Assembly (NCBI GenBank): GCA_025361935.1
Contig: JANYJB010000094.1
Span: 1 to 64,000 of the forward strand
Direction: 5' to 3'
DNA length: 64,000 nucleotides
DNA from: Verrucomicrobiota bacterium
Lineage (GTDB): Bacteria; Verrucomicrobiota; Verrucomicrobiia; Opitutales; Opitutaceae
The notes beneath the pieces were generated by a model. That model was not told where the DNA came from, did no database searches, and was given only the letters and a program-made list of their open reading frames with translations. A program made the position numbers and the translations under genes. Shown here piece by piece: positions 146 to 13,064 of the stretch. Each line of letters starts with the position of its first letter. Positions within the stretch are counted from its first letter, which is position 1.

Positions 146-559
146 TCAGCAGGCGGTTTGCCAATCTTCGCAGGCGAGGCCGGGGACGCGGGCGAACTCG
201 GCGAGGTTGTGGGTGACGAAGATGGCGCCGTTTGCCAGCGCCTGACCGGCGAGCAGGGCGTCGTAGGGGCCGATAGGCTGGGTGAGGTTGGCGAGCTGGG
301 CACGAACGTAGCCTGCCTGATAGGCGGCGGCTGCATCGAAGGTCAGGACCTCCGGAAACAGCGCTTGCAGGCGGAGAATGCGGGTGCGGAAGGCCGGGAC
401 ATCGGGGCGCTTGGCGGCACCGTATTCGAGTTCCACCAAGGCGATGGCGGAGAGGCGGCACGCGGGAAGCAATGCCTCCAATCGATCGCACAACGCCGCG
501 TCTTCCCGGTGGCCCCGCAGGTAACGCGACCAGACATTGGTGTCGGGCAGGTAGATCAC
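146..559 (-). CDS. vapC: PIN-domain ribonuclease toxin, VapC family
   Basis: 137 aa, PIN motifs (YLPDTNVWSRYL, ELEYGA, PYDALLAGQALANGAIFVTHNLAEFARV); GTG start overlaps antitoxin stop. Confidence 0.88.
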   Translation of the reverse strand: MIYLPDTNVWSRYLRGHREDAALCDRLEALLPACRLSAIALVELEYGAAKRPDVPAFRTRILRLQALFPEVLTFDAAAAYQAGYVRAQLANLTQPIGPYDALLAGQALANGAIFVTHNLAEFARVPGLACEDWQTAC

Positions 560-833: not shown

Positions 834-3807
834 TTATTCCGGGGCGGTCGCGTTTGCGTGGAGGAAGCCGGACCAGGTGGTGAAGCCGTCTTTGGCGTAG
901 GTGGCGGCGGGGTTGGAGGGGAGGTCGGCGGGACGGTTGGACTGCCACCATTTGCGCCAGGCGTCGTTGCCGGCGAGGCCGAGGGTGCGTGCGAAGGCGC
1001 GGGCTTCGGCGAAGGGGCGGAACTGGCGGGCGACCGGCGCGATGTTGCCGGTGCCAAGCCAGTCGCCCCAGCCTTGCCACTCGGTTTTATAGACGTTGCG
1101 GGGGCTCGCGGGGATGTCGGCGGGCTTGGGAGGCTTGTCGGTGAACTCGCCGCGAACGTAGCGGGGCCAGTTGAGCGAGCCGCCGAGGTTGAGGGCTTGG
1201 ACTAAGGCGCGTGCGGATTCGAAATCGCGGTAGGCTTTGCCGCGTTTCTTGCGTGGTTTTTCGACGATGGGGCAACCGAGCCAGTCGCTCCAATCCACCC
1301 AGCCGGAGTCGGCGTAGGTTTGGTGAGGGCGGATGGGCAGGTTGGCGGGGAAACGGGTTTTGTCGTCGGCGAAGGCGTTCCACTCGCGGCGCGTGGTGAA
1401 GCCGAGGGCGTGGACGGCGGCGCGGGCTTCGGCGTAGGGCAGATAGGCGCGTTTGGTGGAGGCGATCTGGCCGTTGCCGAGCCAATCGCCCCAGCTGATC
1501 CAGCCGTGATCGACGTAAGCGGCGGCGGGGGATTTGGGGATGTCTTCGGGAATGGGCGAGAGGTCGGGGCGCTTGCCGGTGGCGTAGGCTTTCCAGTGCT
1601 GCTGGCCTTTGAGTTTGAGGGAGTGGGCGAAGGCGCAGGCTTCGGGGTAGGGGCGCCATGCGATGCCGAGAAAGTCCTCCCAGCTAACCCAGCCTTTGCC
1701 TTTGTAGCTTCGGTCAGGATGGCTTGGGACATCGTTTCGCATCGGACCGAGTTCCGGCATCAAGCCATAGCGAAATTTCTGCTGCCACTCTTGAGATGAT
1801 CTAACACCGAGAACTCTTGCCCATGTGCGAGCTTCTTCAAAGCAGATTAATTTGTAGCGGTTAAATCCCTTACTCCGCCGGACTGATTTTCGTCCCGTTC
1901 CGAAAAACTCGCCCCAATCAATCCATCCTCGGTTCGCATAAATACCTTGGACTGATTTGGGGATTCCCATCGGCCATTGGTTGAGCAAACGAAGCCGGTC
2001 GTAGGTTTGTCTCCATTGACTCTGAGATGTGATTCCAAGTTTTTGGGCCCATATTTGGGCTTCGGTGTAAGTCGCATATGAAAGCCTTGCTACGTTCTCC
2101 CAGCAGTGCACTTCGATCTGGTTCGCAAACTCCGTGGCGCTCACTCCGAGCGGAGTGACAACGTTTCCGAAGTCGAATTTCACCAAGCCGGTTTTAGGTG
2201 TTCGGCCTTCGGCGGTGGCGCGGAACCATTCGATGATACGTTCGTCGTGGGCGGCCAAGGCTCGCAGGACGAAGAGGACGAATTTGAAGGCGCTGCTTTC
2301 GGCGATGTCTTCCGGGGTCGCGCCATCCGGCACGACAAGCGGGAGCAGGATGTAGCCTAGTTTTTTTCCGGGGGCCAGACGCAGGGCGCGGCCGGAGGCT
2401 TGGACGATGTCGATGGTGCTGCCTTTGGGGTCGGCAAAGAAAACGCAGTCAATGCCGGGGACGTCCACGCCTTCGGTGAGGCAGCGGGCGTTGGTCACGA
2501 GCGAGGGCGTGGCGTTGAGGAACGCGTCGAGTTCTCTTTGGCGGGCGGCGCTGCCCATTTTTCCCGACACGTGGTAGGCGGCGACGGGCGTTTCGGTGGC
2601 GAGGTGGTCGTTGAGGCGGTTGCAGAGATCGCGGAAGCGGGAGGCGCGGAGAATACTGCTGTGAAACGAGACGGTGTGGCGCACGCCGTGGAGCGCGGTG
2701 GCGCGGCGGAGGGCTATGAGGCTGGCGAGGGCGAGCGAGGTGACTTCGTCGAGGCCGTCGGGGCCGAGGTCGAGCCAGCGGTTGTCGGCGACGAGGGTTT
2801 TTATCTCGGACTCGCGGACGCCGATGGTGAGCAAGCGGTAGTCGCAGAGGATGGGGTCGGCGGCGGAGATGGCGGCTTTGAAGGTGAGGAGGTCGATGGT
2901 CTCTCCGTAGAGCGCGGGGTCGTCCATCGAGACGATGTCGTCGGAGCGGTTGGAGGCGAAGCGGCGTTCCGTGGCCGTCATGAAGAGACGGCGGGGGAGC
3001 GGGAGGTTTTCGTCGTGGAGGAGGTGGGCGTAGTAGCTGGAGGTTTTGCCGGTGGTCTTGTGGGCTTCGTCGAGGACGGCGAAGTCGAAGGCGGTGTTGG
3101 CGTCGCGGGCGGCGGCGGCGAGGACAGGCGAGCTTTGGTAGGTGGTGAGGACGACGAGGAGGCCGGGGCGGGCTTGGGCGGCGCGGAGGTGGTCGGCGAG
3201 TTTGGCGGGGTCGGTGTCGCAGGGGATGCCGAGTTCGTGGACGTGGGCGACGAGGGCTTCGTTGTCCATGTCGGCGACCTCGTCGTCGCTGCACACGCAG
3301 AGCCAGTCCACGGGGCGGGCGTCGGCGACGGCCTCGGTCATCCACGTCTCCAGCGTCTGGCGGACGAGGGCGAGGCTGGGGACGGCGATGAGGACGCGGC
3401 GGGCGTCGAGTGTTTGGGCGATCCAGTAGGCGGTGAGGCTTTTGCCGGAGCCGCAGGGGTGGATCACCTTGCCGCGTGTTTGGGCGGGGTCGGCGTAGTA
3501 GGCGACGGCGGCGGCGACGGCTTTGGACTGGTGTTCGCGGGGCGGGCGAGGTTGCGGACGGGCGGGTGCGGTGTTGGCGGCGGAGCGGAGAGAGTCAAAA
3601 AAAGCGGGGCCGAGTGTGGTCCAGGTTTCCGAGGTGATGTCGCCGATGTTGGCGAGGCCTTGGAGGATGCCGGGGATGCGCGAGGTAGTGGCGGACGACG
3701 TGGGCGAAGGCGGTGCCTTGTTGCGTGGTGTCGGGCAGCGCGGCCACGGCGGCGGTGAAGTCCGACCAAGAGCAGACGGAGGCGAACAGGGAGTTTAGCT
3801 CACGCAC
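834..3807 (-). CDS. DEAD/DEAH superfamily 2 helicase with six C-terminal integrase-type repeats; N-terminus split by an apparent frameshift near 3675-3690
   Basis: HPCGSGKSLTAYW (Walker A), LDEAHKT (Walker B), MTATERR, SGRALRLAPGKK; N-terminal part MRELNSLF...HVVRHYLAHP is in another frame (ORF 3595..3807); main ORF 834..3467. Confidence 0.8.
837..2085 (-). repeat. Six imperfect ~55-60 aa coding repeats (integrase-repeat-like, ending W.sW.dwLG)
   Basis: Repeat ends IYANRGWIDWGEFFG / SYKGKGWVSWEDFLG / AYVDHGWISWGDWLG / TYADSGWVDWSDWLG / VYKTEWQGWGDWLG / TYAKDGFTTWSGFLH in the translation. Confidence 0.8.
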
Positions 3808-4849: not shown

Positions 4850-7800
4850 TTACCGAGAGGCGGCGAGTTTTTCGCGGAGGTGGGTCGTGCGGGTTTTGGC
4901 GTCGCTCGCACGGACGGCCATGGCGTAGGCGGCGGGTTCGCCGACGATGAAGACCTTTTTCTTTCCTCGGGTGATCGCCGTATAGAGCAGGTTGCGCTGG
5001 AGCATCATGAAATGCGCCTTGAGGAGCGGCACGATGACGACGGGGTATTCGCTGCCCTGGCTTTTGTGGATGCTGATGGCGTAGGCGGGGGCGAGGTCGC
5101 CGAAGGCCCCTCGGTCGAAGGTGTGCTCGGCGCCGTCGAACTTGGCGGTGAGCGTGCCGGCTTCGGTGTCCACGGAGGCGATGACGCCAATGTCACCATT
5201 GAAGAGGGCCTTGTCGTAGTTGTTGCGGAGCTGGATGACTTTGTCGCCGGGGCGGTATTCGCCGTGGGGGCCGCGGAGGGCTTTGGCGTGCGGGTTGAGG
5301 GCGGCTTGGAGCTGGAGGTTGAGGTTGCCCACGCCGGCGGTGCCTTTGTGCATGGGAGCGAGGATCTGCACGTCGTTGATCGGGTGAAACCACGGGTAGT
5401 GCGCGGGGACGAACTCGGTGCAGAGCTGGATGACTTTGCGGACGGTGTCTTCGGCGGATTCGGCGACGATGAACGTGAGGTCGGACCACGCCTGCGCGGC
5501 GGAGACTTCGTTGACGGAGGGAGGAAGAACTGGTTCGCCGGCGTTGATGGCGTGGGCGGTGACGACGATCTGGCTCTGGCCTTTCTGGCGGTAGATGACG
5601 TTGAGGCGGGTGACGGGGATTTGTTGCGCGGCGATGAGGTCTTTTAACACGTTGCCGGCGCCGACGGAGGGGAGTTGGTCGATGTCGCCAACGAGGAGAA
5701 GATGGGCGCGCGACGGGACGGCCTGCATGACGGCGGCGGCGAGGCGTGTGTCGAGCATCGAGGCTTCGTCCACGATGAGGAAATCGGTGGCGAGGGGCTG
5801 GTGTTCGTTGGCGACGAAGCCGCCTTTGGACGGGTCATATTTGAGGAGGCGGTGGAGGGTGGAGGCGAAGCCGCCGGTGGTTTCGGAGAGGCGCTGGGCG
5901 GCGCGTCCGGTGGGGGCGGCGAGGTGGACGCGGACCTTCTTGGCCTTGAGGATTTCGACGAGGGCGCGGAGGATGGTGGTGTTGTGGGTGACGATGTAAT
6001 CGTCGGTCACGTAGAGGCCGGAGGGGCTGTCAACGGAGATGCAGACGCAGGGGGCGCGGTCGGCGGGTTCGATGCTGGCGATGCGCAGACGGTGGCCGAG
6101 GCGCTTGCGGGCGTTGGGGCGCTGGAGGCGGCCGAGTTTGCGCGGGAGGCTGAGCAGGGTGGCGGGCTCGGGGTGCTGGAGAGTGACGATGTAGGACGGG
6201 AGGCCGGCGCGTTTTTCGCCGCGATGCGTGTAGGTGGGATGTTTGACGGCACCGATGGTCGCGATGCAGCCGAGGGACCAGGCGAGGCTTTGGAAGTCGC
6301 GAGCGAGGCGATGACTGCTGGAGCTGAAGGAAACGACGCCGTGTTTATCCACGGTGCCGTCGGTATCGAGGAGGCCGCGAAGGAGCTGAAGGCGTTGTTC
6401 GCGGGAGCCGGAGAAGAAGATTTCGGGGATGAATTTTTCGGAGGCACCGACGTTGAGTCCGAGGCTGCGGAGGTGGGCGCCGAGGGTGTTGGGCAGGCCG
6501 CGTTTGGCGTGGGTGAGCCGGTAGCTGATCGTGTCGGTGCCGTGGAGCGTGACGGGCTTGAGCGTGAGGCCGAGCGGGGCGACAAGGCCTTGGATTTTTT
6601 CGCGAATGAAGGCGTCGGTCGTGGTGAGCTGGGTGGACGTTGAGATCGTGCCGTCGCCGATGAGCGCGCCAATCAAGTAGGGGTCGCAGAAGAACTCCTG
6701 CGGGGGGAGATCGGGGCAGGCGGAGAGGAGCGGGACGGCGAGCCGGTTGCTTTCGGCGCGGTCCTCGGCGAGGCGCTTGCGGAGGTAGCTGAGCGGGACG
6801 ACGCGCCAGTCACGGGCGCGGATTTTTTTCTTTTTGGACGGACTCCAGACGGAGACGCGCGTCCATGCTCGCCACAGGTGGTCGTCGCAGCAGAGCGTGG
6901 AGCGTCCGTCGGCGAAGGTGACGCGGAAGATGTCTTTCTCGCCTTGCGGGTGGACGCTTTTGATTTTGGCGATGGTGCCTTCGGCGGTGATGATGCGCGA
7001 GCCCGAGCGGAGGCTACCGATGGGGCGGAAGCCGGAGGGCGTGAGCACTTGGGCGGTGAGCGGCTGGGCTTTGCCCGTGCCGGGGCCGCCGGTGAGGATG
7101 GAGACTTTGGAAAGGAGGGCGTTTTTGAGGCCGGCGCGTTGTTGTTCGGCGAATTCGAAGCCGGCTTTTTGCTCGGCCCACTGGACGGCGGCGTCGGCTT
7201 TGATGGGCGGGAGGCCGCTGCCGACTTTCGTGAGGCGGGCGATGGTGGCGGCGATTTTTTGTTCGGCGCGGTCGTTGACGGGGAGTTGGACAAGGCCGGA
7301 GCCGGGGAGTGGGTTGTCCACGCCGGCGGGGGTGTGGCGGACGAGGGCTTTCGTTGCGACGAGGGCGGCGATGCGGGCTTCGACGAACTTGGCCTCGGTT
7401 TCGAGAAGCGGGGCGGCGTAGTCAATGAGGTCAACTTCGCGGATGGCGGTGTGGCCTTCCTCCTGGAGCGTCTCCATCGCGTAGAGGAGGCCGGCGTCGA
7501 GGCGGGGCGGGGCGTCGTTGGCGTAGCCGAGGTTGATGGCGATGCGGTCGGCGGTCTTGAAGCCGATGCCGTCGATCTCGCGGGCGACGCGGTAGGGCTC
7601 GGTGGTGAGGATGCGTTTGGCCTCGCCGCCGTATTGGTTGATCACCTTCACGCACTGGCCGGTGGTGACGCCGTAGGTCTGGAGGAAGATGTAGAGCTCG
7701 CGGAAGGCGCGTTGGTCGTCCCAGGCTTTCTTGATGGCGGTGGCGCGTTTTTTGCCGATGCCGGGGACGTCGCGGAGTTTGCCGGACTCTTCGCTGAGGA

Positions 7801-8242
7801 CGCGGAAGGTGTCGGTGCCGAAGGCGTCCACGATCTTGTTGGCGTAAACCTTGCCGATGCCTTCGACGAGGCCGGAGCCGAGGTATTTGCGGATGCCGTA
7901 AACGCTGGAGGGAAGCTCGGAGCGGAAGGTGGCGATCTTGAACTGGTCGCCGTGCTGGGCGTGCTTGGTCCAGGTGCCGCGGAGGTGGAGGGTTTCGCCG
8001 CATTGGACGCCGGGGAGGGCGCCGACGATGCTCACGCGGGCGTCCCGGCCCTCGGCGGAGTCGGGGCGGAACTCCGCGATGGTGTAGTGGTTCTCCTCGT
8101 TGAAGAAGATGATGCGTTCGAGAACGCCGGTGAGGGTGTCGGAATTGGCGGAGGAGGCGGCCACGTGGGGCGAAGATGAACACCGCTTCGCGGAAAAAAT
8201 CAAATGCAGGGAATTGCCATGCGTCGGCCGGGATGATGGCAT
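4850..8242 (-). CDS. recD2: RecD2-like SF1 DNA helicase precursor containing an intein
   Basis: N-terminal OB/HhH region (VPGIGKKRATAIKKAW, EIDGIGFKTADRIA), GGPGTGK|intein|TTILRALVEIL, DEASMLDTRL, VGDIDQLPSVGAGNVL, IHKSQGSEYPVVIVPL, YTAITRGKKKVFIVG; exact start uncertain. Confidence 0.93.
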   Translation of the reverse strand: MPSSRPTHGNSLHLIFSAKRCSSSPHVAASSANSDTLTGVLERIIFFNEENHYTIAEFRPDSAEGRDARVSIVGALPGVQCGETLHLRGTWTKHAQHGDQFKIATFRSELPSSVYGIRKYLGSGLVEGIGKVYANKIVDAFGTDTFRVLSEESGKLRDVPGIGKKRATAIKKAWDDQRAFRELYIFLQTYGVTTGQCVKVINQYGGEAKRILTTEPYRVAREIDGIGFKTADRIAINLGYANDAPPRLDAGLLYAMETLQEEGHTAIREVDLIDYAAPLLETEAKFVEARIAALVATKALVRHTPAGVDNPLPGSGLVQLPVNDRAEQKIAATIARLTKVGSGLPPIKADAAVQWAEQKAGFEFAEQQRAGLKNALLSKVSILTGGPGTGKAQPLTAQVLTPSGFRPIGSLRSGSRIITAEGTIAKIKSVHPQGEKDIFRVTFADGRSTLCCDDHLWRAWTRVSVWSPSKKKKIRARDWRVVPLSYLRKRLAEDRAESNRLAVPLLSACPDLPPQEFFCDPYLIGALIGDGTISTSTQLTTTDAFIREKIQGLVAPLGLTLKPVTLHGTDTISYRLTHAKRGLPNTLGAHLRSLGLNVGASEKFIPEIFFSGSREQRLQLLRGLLDTDGTVDKHGVVSFSSSSHRLARDFQSLAWSLGCIATIGAVKHPTYTHRGEKRAGLPSYIVTLQHPEPATLLSLPRKLGRLQRPNARKRLGHRLRIASIEPADRAPCVCISVDSPSGLYVTDDYIVTHNTTILRALVEILKAKKVRVHLAAPTGRAAQRLSETTGGFASTLHRLLKYDPSKGGFVANEHQPLATDFLIVDEASMLDTRLAAAVMQAVPSRAHLLLVGDIDQLPSVGAGNVLKDLIAAQQIPVTRLNVIYRQKGQSQIVVTAHAINAGEPVLPPSVNEVSAAQAWSDLTFIVAESAEDTVRKVIQLCTEFVPAHYPWFHPINDVQILAPMHKGTAGVGNLNLQLQAALNPHAKALRGPHGEYRPGDKVIQLRNNYDKALFNGDIGVIASVDTEAGTLTAKFDGAEHTFDRGAFGDLAPAYAISIHKSQGSEYPVVIVPLLKAHFMMLQRNLLYTAITRGKKKVFIVGEPAAYAMAVRASDAKTRTTHLREKLAASR
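5981..7069 (-). mobile_element. Intein (about 363 aa) with LAGLIDADG-type homing endonuclease, inserted in RecD2 Walker A
   Basis: Begins AQPLTAQVLTPSGFRPIGSL, ends YIVTHN before +1 Thr; DOD motifs LIGALIGDGTIS and LLRGLLDTDGTV; block B DGRSTLCCDDHLW, block F APCVCISVDS. Confidence 0.93.
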
Positions 8243-9436: not shown

Positions 9437-10567
9437 ATGCCAGAGCCAACCGCCACCATTCCCGAAACCCGCGTGCTCCTGCACCCGAAGGCCGAGGAGC
9501 TGCTGGTCGAGTTGCAGGGCGACTGGCGCATCACGGAGACGCGGCCCTCGTGGGTGGCGTTGCTCGCCGGGACCGCGCCGAAGCGCGTGAAGTTCGTCTG
9601 GGGCGCGCTCGGCGAATGGGACAGCGCGTTGCTGCTGTTTGTCTTCGAGGTGAGGCAGTGGTGCCGCGTGCAGGGCGTTTACTGCGACCTTTCGTGCCTG
9701 CCGGAGGCCATGCAAAAACTCCTCGGCCAGCTCGTCGTAGTGAACGAGACGCGGATGAGTTTCGACCGCTCGAAGGATTTTGTTACGATGGTAGGACTGG
9801 CGGCGCAGGACGTGTGGGCGAAGACGCAGGAGATCGCGACTTTCGTGGGCGAATGCGTTATCAGCGCGGGCAACCTCCTGAAACTCCCGCGCAAATTCCG
9901 CTGGCGCGACTGTCTGGAGGAGATGCAGCGTTGCGGCGCGATGGCGCTGCCCATCGTGAGCCTGATCAGCCTGCTCACGGGCCTCATCATGGCCTACCAA
10001 TCGGCGATTCTTATGCGGCAGTTTGGCGCCGACATTTATGTGGCCGACGCGGTCGGGCTGGTGATGGTCCGCGAGATGGGAGCGATGATGACGGCGATCA
10101 TCCTCGCGGGCCGCACGGGCGCGGCGTTTGCGGCGACGCTGGGCAACATGAAGGCGGGCGAAGAGATCGATGCGCTCACCACGCTCGGCATCCGCCCGGT
10201 GGATTTTCTCGTGATGCCGCGCATCGTCGCGCTGGCCGTGATGATGCCGCTGCTCGCGCTCTATGCGAACGGCCTCGGCATCCTCGGCGGCATGATCGTG
10301 TCGCTCGGCGTGCTCAACATCCCGCCCACCGCCTACTGGATCGAAACGCAGACGGCCATCGACCTGTCGGACGTGGCCACGGGCCTCATCAAGGCCTCCG
10401 CGTTCGGCGTGCTGGTGGGGCTGGCGGGCTGCCACAGCGGCCTTCGCGCCGAGCGCAGCGCGGCGGGCGTGGGCAACGCGGCCACCTCGGCGGTCGTGAT
10501 GGGCCTGCTGCTCATCATCGTGTTCGACGCGTTGTTCGCCGTCGTCTTCAACGTCGTCGGCCTGTGA
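9437..10567 (+). CDS. MlaE-family lipid ABC transporter permease with N-terminal STAS-like region
   Basis: MlaE core RTGAAFAATLGNMKAGEEIDALTTLGIRPVDFLVMPR; about 120 aa N-terminal extension. Confidence 0.88.
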   Translation: MPEPTATIPETRVLLHPKAEELLVELQGDWRITETRPSWVALLAGTAPKRVKFVWGALGEWDSALLLFVFEVRQWCRVQGVYCDLSCLPEAMQKLLGQLVVVNETRMSFDRSKDFVTMVGLAAQDVWAKTQEIATFVGECVISAGNLLKLPRKFRWRDCLEEMQRCGAMALPIVSLISLLTGLIMAYQSAILMRQFGADIYVADAVGLVMVREMGAMMTAIILAGRTGAAFAATLGNMKAGEEIDALTTLGIRPVDFLVMPRIVALAVMMPLLALYANGLGILGGMIVSLGVLNIPPTAYWIETQTAIDLSDVATGLIKASAFGVLVGLAGCHSGLRAERSAAGVGNAATSAVVMGLLLIIVFDALFAVVFNVVGL

Positions 10568-10577
10568 ACCTCCGCGC

Positions 10578-11375
10578 ATGAACACCGATCCAAACCTTCC
10601 CGCCCTCGACGTCGCCGGCCTGGAGTGCGGCTACGACGACAAGGTGCTGCTGAAGGACATCAACTTTCAGGTGAGGCGCGGGGAGATTTTCTTCATCATC
10701 GGCGGCTCCGGCTGCGGCAAAAGCACGCTGCTGCGCCACCTCGTGGGCCTGCGCGCACCGACGGCGGGGACGGTGAAATTTTTCGGCGAATGCTTCAACT
10801 CCGCCACGCCCGACCGCCAGCGCGAGATGCTCAAGCGCATCGGCGTGCTCTACCAGGGCGGTGCTCTGTGGAGTTCGCTCAGCCTCCTCGAAAACGTCAT
10901 GCTGCCGCTCGAGGAATACACGCCGCTCGACGCATCCGAGCGCGCCGAGCTGGCCTGCATGAAACTGGCGCAGGTCGGGCTCTCCGGCTACGACAGCTAC
11001 TTCCCTTCGGAGATCAGCGGCGGCATGAAAAAACGCGCCGGTCTGGCCCGCGCCCTCGCGCTCGACCCGAGCATCGTGTTTTTCGACGAGCCCTCCGCCG
11101 GCCTCGACCCGCTGACCTCGCGCAAGCTCGACGAGTTGATCGTCAACCTCCGCGACCTGCTCGGCATGACCTGCGTGGTCGTCTCGCACGAGCTGGCTTC
11201 TATCTTCGCGATCGCCGACCGCGTCGTCATGCTCGACAAGCAGGCCCAGGGCATCATCGCCGACGGCGACCCCCGCGTGCTCGTCAAGGCCAGCGCCGAC
11301 GTGCGCGTGCGCGAGTTCCTCGGCCGGGGCGACGACGCCCGGGTCGCCGCGCTCCAAAACCAGCCTTCCCCTTGA
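10578..11375 (+). CDS. MlaF-family ABC transporter ATP-binding protein
   Basis: GGSGCGKSTLLRHLVGL, ISGGMKKRAGLARALALDPSIVFFDEPSAGLDPLTS. Confidence 0.92.
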   Translation: MNTDPNLPALDVAGLECGYDDKVLLKDINFQVRRGEIFFIIGGSGCGKSTLLRHLVGLRAPTAGTVKFFGECFNSATPDRQREMLKRIGVLYQGGALWSSLSLLENVMLPLEEYTPLDASERAELACMKLAQVGLSGYDSYFPSEISGGMKKRAGLARALALDPSIVFFDEPSAGLDPLTSRKLDELIVNLRDLLGMTCVVVSHELASIFAIADRVVMLDKQAQGIIADGDPRVLVKASADVRVREFLGRGDDARVAALQNQPSP

Positions 11376-11403
11376 ACCCGCTCCCGCTTAAACCCGTCAT
11401 CTC

Positions 11404-12420
11404 GTGAAGACCAAAGTCAGTCCGGCCGTCGTCGGTTTGTTCGTCCTGGGTGCGTTTGTGCTCGGGCTCATCGCGTTGTTTTCGTTCGGCGGCGTCAGCT
11501 TTTTCTCCAAGCCGGAGCGCTTCATCGTCTATTTCGACGAGTCGATCCACGGCCTCGACCTCGGCTCGCCGGTGAAGCTCCGCGGCGTGCGGGTGGGCCG
11601 GGTGGTGGACTTCAACCTGCGCTACGTGCCGGGCCAGAACAAGTCGGTCGTAGCAGTGGTGTGCGAGCTCAGCCGCAACGTCATCACCGATCCGCAGGGC
11701 AAGCCCCTCGACGTGTCCGACCGCGACCAGCTCCAAGCCCTCGTCGATCACGGACTGCGGGCGCAGCTCGGCGTCATCGGCCTCGCCACCGGCCTGCTGT
11801 TTGTGGAGCTCGATTTCCTCGATCCGCACGCCTACCCGCTGACGATCACGGCGGGTTTTGAATCCAAATACGTCGAGATGCCCGCCGTGCCCTCGGCCAT
11901 CTCGCAGTTCCAGTCCAATCTCACCGGAATCTTGGAAAACGTGAAGCGCGTGGATTTCGCCGCGCTCGCCGCCCAGGCGCAGGGCCTCATCGCCGACGCC
12001 CGCAAGAAGCTCGACGCCATGGACACCGCCGCGCTCGTCGCCCAGTGGACCAAGGCCGGCGAATCCGTCCACCAGCTCGCCTCCTCCGCCGAGCTGAAGG
12101 ACACCTTTGCCAACATGAACGCGGCCTCCGTGAAGTTGAACACCATCCTCGGGAAGTTCGACCGCGAAGGCCCGTCGCCCGCGCAGTTCGCCGACACGCT
12201 CAAGGACGCGCGCGAGGCCATCTCCTCCTTCAACGGCACGGTCTCCACGCTCCACAACTTCATCAGCGCGCAGCAGCACCTCGGTGACGACGCCTCGCAG
12301 GCGTTCGTCCGCCTCGGCGAAGCCGCCGCCGCTGTGCGCGCGCTGGCCGACTACCTCGAACGCAATCCCAACGCCCTCATCACCGGCCGCAAGGCACCAA
12401 CCCCGGAGACCACGCGATGA
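11404..12420 (+). CDS. MlaD/MCE-domain protein
   Basis: Single N-terminal TM then FDESIHGLDLGSPVKLRGVRVGRVVDFNLRY MCE pattern. Confidence 0.88.
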   Translation: MKTKVSPAVVGLFVLGAFVLGLIALFSFGGVSFFSKPERFIVYFDESIHGLDLGSPVKLRGVRVGRVVDFNLRYVPGQNKSVVAVVCELSRNVITDPQGKPLDVSDRDQLQALVDHGLRAQLGVIGLATGLLFVELDFLDPHAYPLTITAGFESKYVEMPAVPSAISQFQSNLTGILENVKRVDFAALAAQAQGLIADARKKLDAMDTAALVAQWTKAGESVHQLASSAELKDTFANMNAASVKLNTILGKFDREGPSPAQFADTLKDAREAISSFNGTVSTLHNFISAQQHLGDDASQAFVRLGEAAAAVRALADYLERNPNALITGRKAPTPETTR

Positions 12421-13064
12421 AACCTTCCTTCTTCAAAAACCCACGCCTTCTCGCCGCGCTGCTTTTCGCCGGCCTCGCGCTGCTCGGCCAGACGGGTTGC
12501 TCTCTCTTGCCCGCGCCGCAGGCCGATCCCACACACTACTACGTGCTCGCCGGCCCCGCGTTTGCCGACCCCGGCCCGGCGCGGGCGGAAGGTGCGCTGC
12601 GCGTCGGCCTGCGCCGCATCGAAGTCGTGCCCTACCTCGGCGGCAAGGCCATGATCGTGCGCAACTCGGCCAACGAAATCACCTACCAGGACTACGCCCG
12701 CTGGGCCGAGCCTCCCGCCTCGGGCATCGAGCGCATCGTGACGGCGCGCCTCCAGAGCTCGCCGAAGATCGGGCGCGTTTATTTGCAGCCGTTCCCCTTT
12801 GACGAGAAACGCGACTACGACGTGGCCGTGAGCGTGCTCCGCTGCGAAGGCGAGCGGACGCCCGACGGCAAGCTGGCGGCGGGTTTCGCGTGCACCGTCG
12901 AGTTGACCGAGGCGAAGCCGGGCGGCGCGGTGGTGATGCGAAAGACGTTCACCGCCCCGGCGGCCGCGTGGGACGGCAAGGATTTCGGCAAACTCGCGCA
13001 GTTGCTCGGCGACGCCGTGGCGGCGCTGGGCGAGGAAATCATCGGCGCATTGCCGGCGAAGTGA
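12417..13064 (+). CDS. PqiC-like (DUF330) ABC transport auxiliary lipoprotein
   Basis: Lipobox LLGQTGCSLLPAP, THYYVLAGP; ATGA overlap with the MCE gene. Confidence 0.75.
   Translation: MKPSFFKNPRLLAALLFAGLALLGQTGCSLLPAPQADPTHYYVLAGPAFADPGPARAEGALRVGLRRIEVVPYLGGKAMIVRNSANEITYQDYARWAEPPASGIERIVTARLQSSPKIGRVYLQPFPFDEKRDYDVAVSVLRCEGERTPDGKLAAGFACTVELTEAKPGGAVVMRKTFTAPAAAWDGKDFGKLAQLLGDAVAALGEEIIGALPAK

Follow-up and report, generated by a model that had tools for sequence, protein, structure and literature searches.

Insertion between the Lys and the Ser/Thr of a P-loop has been described as a "classic" intein site (PMC5050341), and Msm DnaBi1 is a class 3 intein at the P-loop of DnaB (PMC6195587). 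The element that we describe here, from the recD2 gene of a member of the Opitutaceae, resembles Msm DnaBi1 (6bs8) and MchDnaB-1 (6rix) in its WCT residues, in having Ala at position 1, in its P-loop site beside a Ser/Thr, and in a splicing domain that can be aligned with theirs. It differs from them in its host (DnaB for the other two), in its +1 residue (Thr rather than Ser), in having Cys rather than Asp at the TxxH position, and in carrying an endonuclease, which these two mini-inteins lack. Inteins of phage and cellular DnaB proteins, Snf2-like helicases, and terminases (e.g., loci L010-L020 and L085-L162, and mycobacteriophage TerL1-a) align with it over their full length, mostly at 30 to 42% identity. 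They share its A1, WCT, and THN residues and, in most cases, its GK/S-T position, but their hosts are unrelated to RecD2 beyond the P-loop, and the RecD2 inteins form a separate clade, which has full support in the intein tree. PI-SceI, the yeast VMA1 intein, likewise has a two-motif LAGLIDADG endonuclease inserted into its splicing domain, but it is a class 1 intein (Cys1) and has a different host.

The window, which is the whole stretch of 64,000 nucleotides that was analyzed, contains the features listed here.

4850-8242, minus strand: recD2 open reading frame, 1130 aa, open throughout
7070-8242, minus strand: RecD2 N-extein, ending in GGPGTGK, with OB_YrrC, HHH_5, and HHH_RecD2 and a TIGR01448 match; its length of 391 aa is counted from the given ATG, a provisional start codon
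5981-7069, minus strand: predicted class 3 intein of 363 aa (A1 to N363) that contains a LAGLIDADG endonuclease
4850-5980, minus strand: RecD2 C-extein, 376 aa plus stop, starting with TTILRAL, with AAA_30, SH3_13, and UvrD_C_2
7067-7069, minus strand: intein residue A1, a non-nucleophile at position 1, invariant in 29 aligned relatives
6872-6892, minus strand: block B, C60 C61 D D H64 L W66, in which W66 is the Trp of WCT
6041-6049, minus strand: block F, C341 V C343 (followed by I S), in which C343 is the WCT nucleophile
5981-5989, minus strand: block G, T361 H362 N363 (preceded by Val), in which T361 is the Thr of WCT

In a profile search, the product of the interrupted gene matches TIGR01448 in two stretches, with an E value of 1.1e-234, which passes the cutoff for RecD2. 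Its domain order is OB_YrrC, HHH_RecD2, AAA_30, SH3_13, and UvrD_C_2, with LAGLIDADG_3 in the middle of the protein, so that a RecD2-type N terminus and an SF1B core (TIGR01448, HHH_RecD2, OB_YrrC, and SH3_13) are both present. The inserted sequence, AQPLTAQ...DYIVTHN, is stop-free and in frame, and it lies between the Lys and the Thr of Walker A; without it the exteins join as GGPGTGK/TTILRAL. The first Thr of the C-extein completes Walker A and, judging by sequence, would also serve as the +1 splicing nucleophile. The nearest relatives of the same genus (L042 and L043) have identical flanks that are uninterrupted, SKVSILTGGPGTGK/TTILRALVEILKAKK, which shows that the intein boundaries are right to the codon. 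An assembly artifact is excluded because the same insertion is present in 16 further Opitutaceae genomes. The preliminary description of this DNA had placed an intein inside the RecD2 Walker A motif at 5981-7069, and the in-frame reading frame, the TIGR01448 match, and the rejoined flanks agree with that placement, as do the clean empty GK/T sites found when RecD2 homologues from the nearest relatives were checked.

Elsewhere in the window, a PIN-domain protein (146-559, minus strand) lies beside a short upstream open reading frame and is possibly the VapC toxin of a toxin-antitoxin pair. A DEAD/ResIII-type helicase (834-3467, minus strand) has C-terminal degenerate Trp-rich repeats (W..WG.WLG) with a weak integrase-repeat match, and a lipid transport operon of MlaE, ABC ATPase, and MlaD-type genes occupies 9437-13064 on the plus strand.

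With its boundary set by the empty sites, the intein has Ala at position 1 and no Cys, Ser, or Thr nucleophile there. It has Cys at position 4 of block F, Trp in block B, and Thr before the penultimate His of block G. A1, Q2, C60, C61, H64, W66, C343, T361, H362, and N363 do not vary among the 29 aligned sequences. The TxxH position, which is Thr in class 1 inteins, is occupied by C61. Both MchDnaB-1 (6rix) and Msm DnaBi1 (6bs8) can be aligned with the splicing domain along its whole length, and W66, C343, and T361 fall in the WCT columns of that alignment. The best splicing-domain alignment is with 6riz, which is gp41-1 with WCT engineered into it by C1A/F65W/D107C (PMC7664689). The C343 column holds Cys107 in gp41-1_WCT and Asp in wild-type gp41-1 (6qaz), and it is the second Cys of the "CVC" in block F that matches the class 3 nucleophile. 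The top PDB sequence matches include 6riz, 6rix, and 6bs8, and the intein tree places the RecD2 inteins inside the AQPL...THN family. The class 3 type with WCT had been proposed earlier, with the proviso that alignment of these residues at other positions would count against it; no such displacement is seen relative to 6rix and 6bs8. We therefore classify the 363-aa element, from its sequence, as a class 3 intein. A RecD2 pseudogene containing an intein that does not splice is extremely improbable for this organism; nothing in the sequence favors such a reading, as the reading frame is open throughout, every splicing residue is intact, and the exteins are ~95% identical to the intact RecD2 of sister species.

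It is almost certain, in our judgment, that recD2 on this chromosome carries a full-length class 3 intein that would both splice and home by means of its LAGLIDADG endonuclease. By the known chemistry of the class 3 family, C343 in block F would attack the peptide bond ahead of A1, which would place the N-extein on it as a first branched thioester. The N-extein chain would then move to Thr+1, and cyclization of N363 would free the intein and restore GGPGTGKT. Because the Walker A K and T are 363 residues apart until splicing, the precursor should not bind ATP. For the RadA P-loop intein, ATPase function is reported to be lost, as discussed in PMC6195587. Such a location makes splicing necessary, but it does not thereby make it regulated. 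A conditional switch, in which splicing of the precursor and active RecD2 await a redox or metal signal sensed by C60, C61, C341, and C343, strikes us as quite unlikely. C341 is invariant in 17 of 17 RecD2 inteins and C60/C61 in 29 of 29 aligned relatives, H2O2 inhibits Msm DnaBi1 at the DnaB P-loop via its nucleophilic Cys (PMC6195587), and zinc inhibits mycobacterial DnaB splicing (PMC7360933). However, the extra block F Cys is not a feature of RecD2 inteins alone, since 9 of the 64 distinct viral relatives and three cellular ones, all with other hosts, have it too. In DnaBi1 the partner Cys (Cys48) lies at a different position, and the patchy presence of the intein in close species speaks against a required regulatory role. 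Apart from the location, nothing speaks directly for a regulatory switch, and the conserved cysteines do not demonstrate one.

The CxC arrangement, in which an additional Cys stands two positions ahead of the class 3 nucleophile (6041-6049, minus strand, in the window), recurs here and there among class 3 inteins of phages and cells (loci L016, L018, L020, L090, L096, L099, L100, L101, L105, L119, L122, L155, L165, and L167). As a candidate peculiarity of RecD2 inteins it was rejected, since some phage inteins have CxC as well.

The endonuclease part of the intein has three mapped features.

6170-6697, minus strand: homing endonuclease domain, approximately residues 125-300; LAGLIDADG_3, E value 6e-13; PI-SceI/I-DmoI by fold
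6647-6679, minus strand: LAGLIDADG motif 1, YLIGALIGDGT, Asp present
6350-6388, minus strand: LAGLIDADG motif 2, QLLRGLLDTDGTV, Asp present

This is a two-motif LAGLIDADG endonuclease, and each motif of the window copy keeps its acidic residue, so the preliminary description was right that the motifs are intact. An AlphaFold2 model of the intein, built from a 29-row alignment, has a mean pLDDT of 87.9 and a pTM of 0.82. In Foldseek comparisons, PI-SceI matches the full length, I-DmoI matches the endonuclease, and 6riz, 6riy, and 6bs8 match the splicing domain. A domain search found no second LAGLIDADG_3 element in the genome of the window. Between the window copy (G000) and G009, the endonuclease part is under purifying selection, with a dN of 0.065 and a dS of 0.60 (dN/dS of ~0.11). 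The LAGLIDADG domain would cut intein-free recD2 at the P-loop codons, and repair would copy the intein in, as the sequence and the population pattern both suggest. Such cutting is supported indirectly by the movement of the intein from one lineage to another.

The RecD2 intein is distributed patchily and sporadically among related species, with carriers making up 17 of 252 Opitutaceae species genomes and falling in 10 of 49 genera. All 17 inteins are exactly 363 aa and occupy the same codon. A junction-spanning query found RecD2 in 232 genomes, and among the matches listed, the RecD2 of noncarriers is unbroken through the insertion site. A long upstream open frame in L002/L026 (1521 aa) was taken as a chance reading-frame extension. 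A RecD2 extein tree of the 17 carriers and 43 empty alleles requires at least 13 gains or losses. The extein of the window has its nearest matches in two empty alleles, at 95.5 and 94.5% identity, and is only 88.9% identical to that of the other carrier in its genus, whose extein is nearest to a different empty allele. No RecD2 inteins were found outside the Opitutaceae among genome contigs, viral contigs, and 390 genomes across the phylum; matches in the phylum-wide genomes sit instead in Sak4-like ATPases and other helicases.

Intein and extein histories also disagree. The inteins of seven carriers do not form the single group that their exteins would predict (AU test, P = 2.2e-5), and the inteins of four carriers from a single genus reject the extein grouping (AU test, P = 3.2e-8). 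The L038 and L041 inteins have a dS of 0.06, versus 0.26 for their exteins, which marks a recent transfer. Synonymous divergence is greater in the intein than in the extein for 131 of 136 pairs, consistent with inteins having been acquired independently from a diverse pool. GC3 is higher in the extein than in the intein in nearly all carriers, and stronger extein codon bias may account for part of the excess. Most of the pairs compared gave no clear, consistent signal of co-conversion tracts beside the insertion. L039 alone showed a diverged flank: the parts of recD2 lying up to ~60 codons from the insertion are far more diverged from the nearest relative than is the rest of the gene, which is possibly co-conversion; no donor for this flank was found. 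A dead or dying intein, with splicing kept since the host needs RecD2 and with an inactive endonuclease, is unlikely. Motif residues have been lost in the relatives L039 (DTGG) and L031 (LIRDG), but both acidic residues are intact in the window copy, the G000/G009 comparison indicates purifying selection, and the L038/L041 transfer was recent and within the family. Purifying selection together with damaged motifs in L039 and L031 are states expected of a homing cycle, and we interpret the RecD2 intein as most plausibly following an ordinary one, with horizontal spread.

Relatives of the RecD2 inteins occur in cells, phages, and plasmids, in hosts that flanking sequence and record annotation, rather than case-by-case tests, name as DnaB, Snf2-like helicases, terminases, and Sak4-like ATPases. 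Those in phage and plasmid records are all <60% identical to the RecD2 inteins. The exact GK/S-T position in Walker A is used by at least 44 of the 64 distinct viral relatives, a lower bound because some intein starts were set by alignment. In verrucomicrobial genomes outside the Opitutaceae, a Sak4-like ATPase of the RecA fold is host to class 3 inteins (L165, L166, L167, L169, and L170), at the site GVGK/S wherever the N-terminal side is visible. Intein-like elements in SF2 helicases (L168, L171, L173, and L174) have Cys first and a different P-loop position.

We found no report of an intein in RecD, RecD2, or exodeoxyribonuclease V in the open-license papers examined, consistent with the earlier suggestion that RecD2 is an unusual class 3 host. 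RecD2 thus appears to be new as a host of class 3 inteins. The type of element, the insertion site, and the mechanism are already known; since class 3 inteins at the P-loop Lys/Ser-Thr junction have been described (PMC6195587, PMC5050341), only the host gene appears to be new. Because the structurally solved class 3 models are mini-inteins, this element, which is full-length and retains an endonuclease, makes a candidate for assays of splicing and homing. RecD2 joins the list of class 3 intein hosts, and with 17 carriers and many sister species with empty sites, the Opitutaceae offer a well-sampled case of an intein lineage that appears to have colonized a new P-loop ATPase and then circulated within the family.
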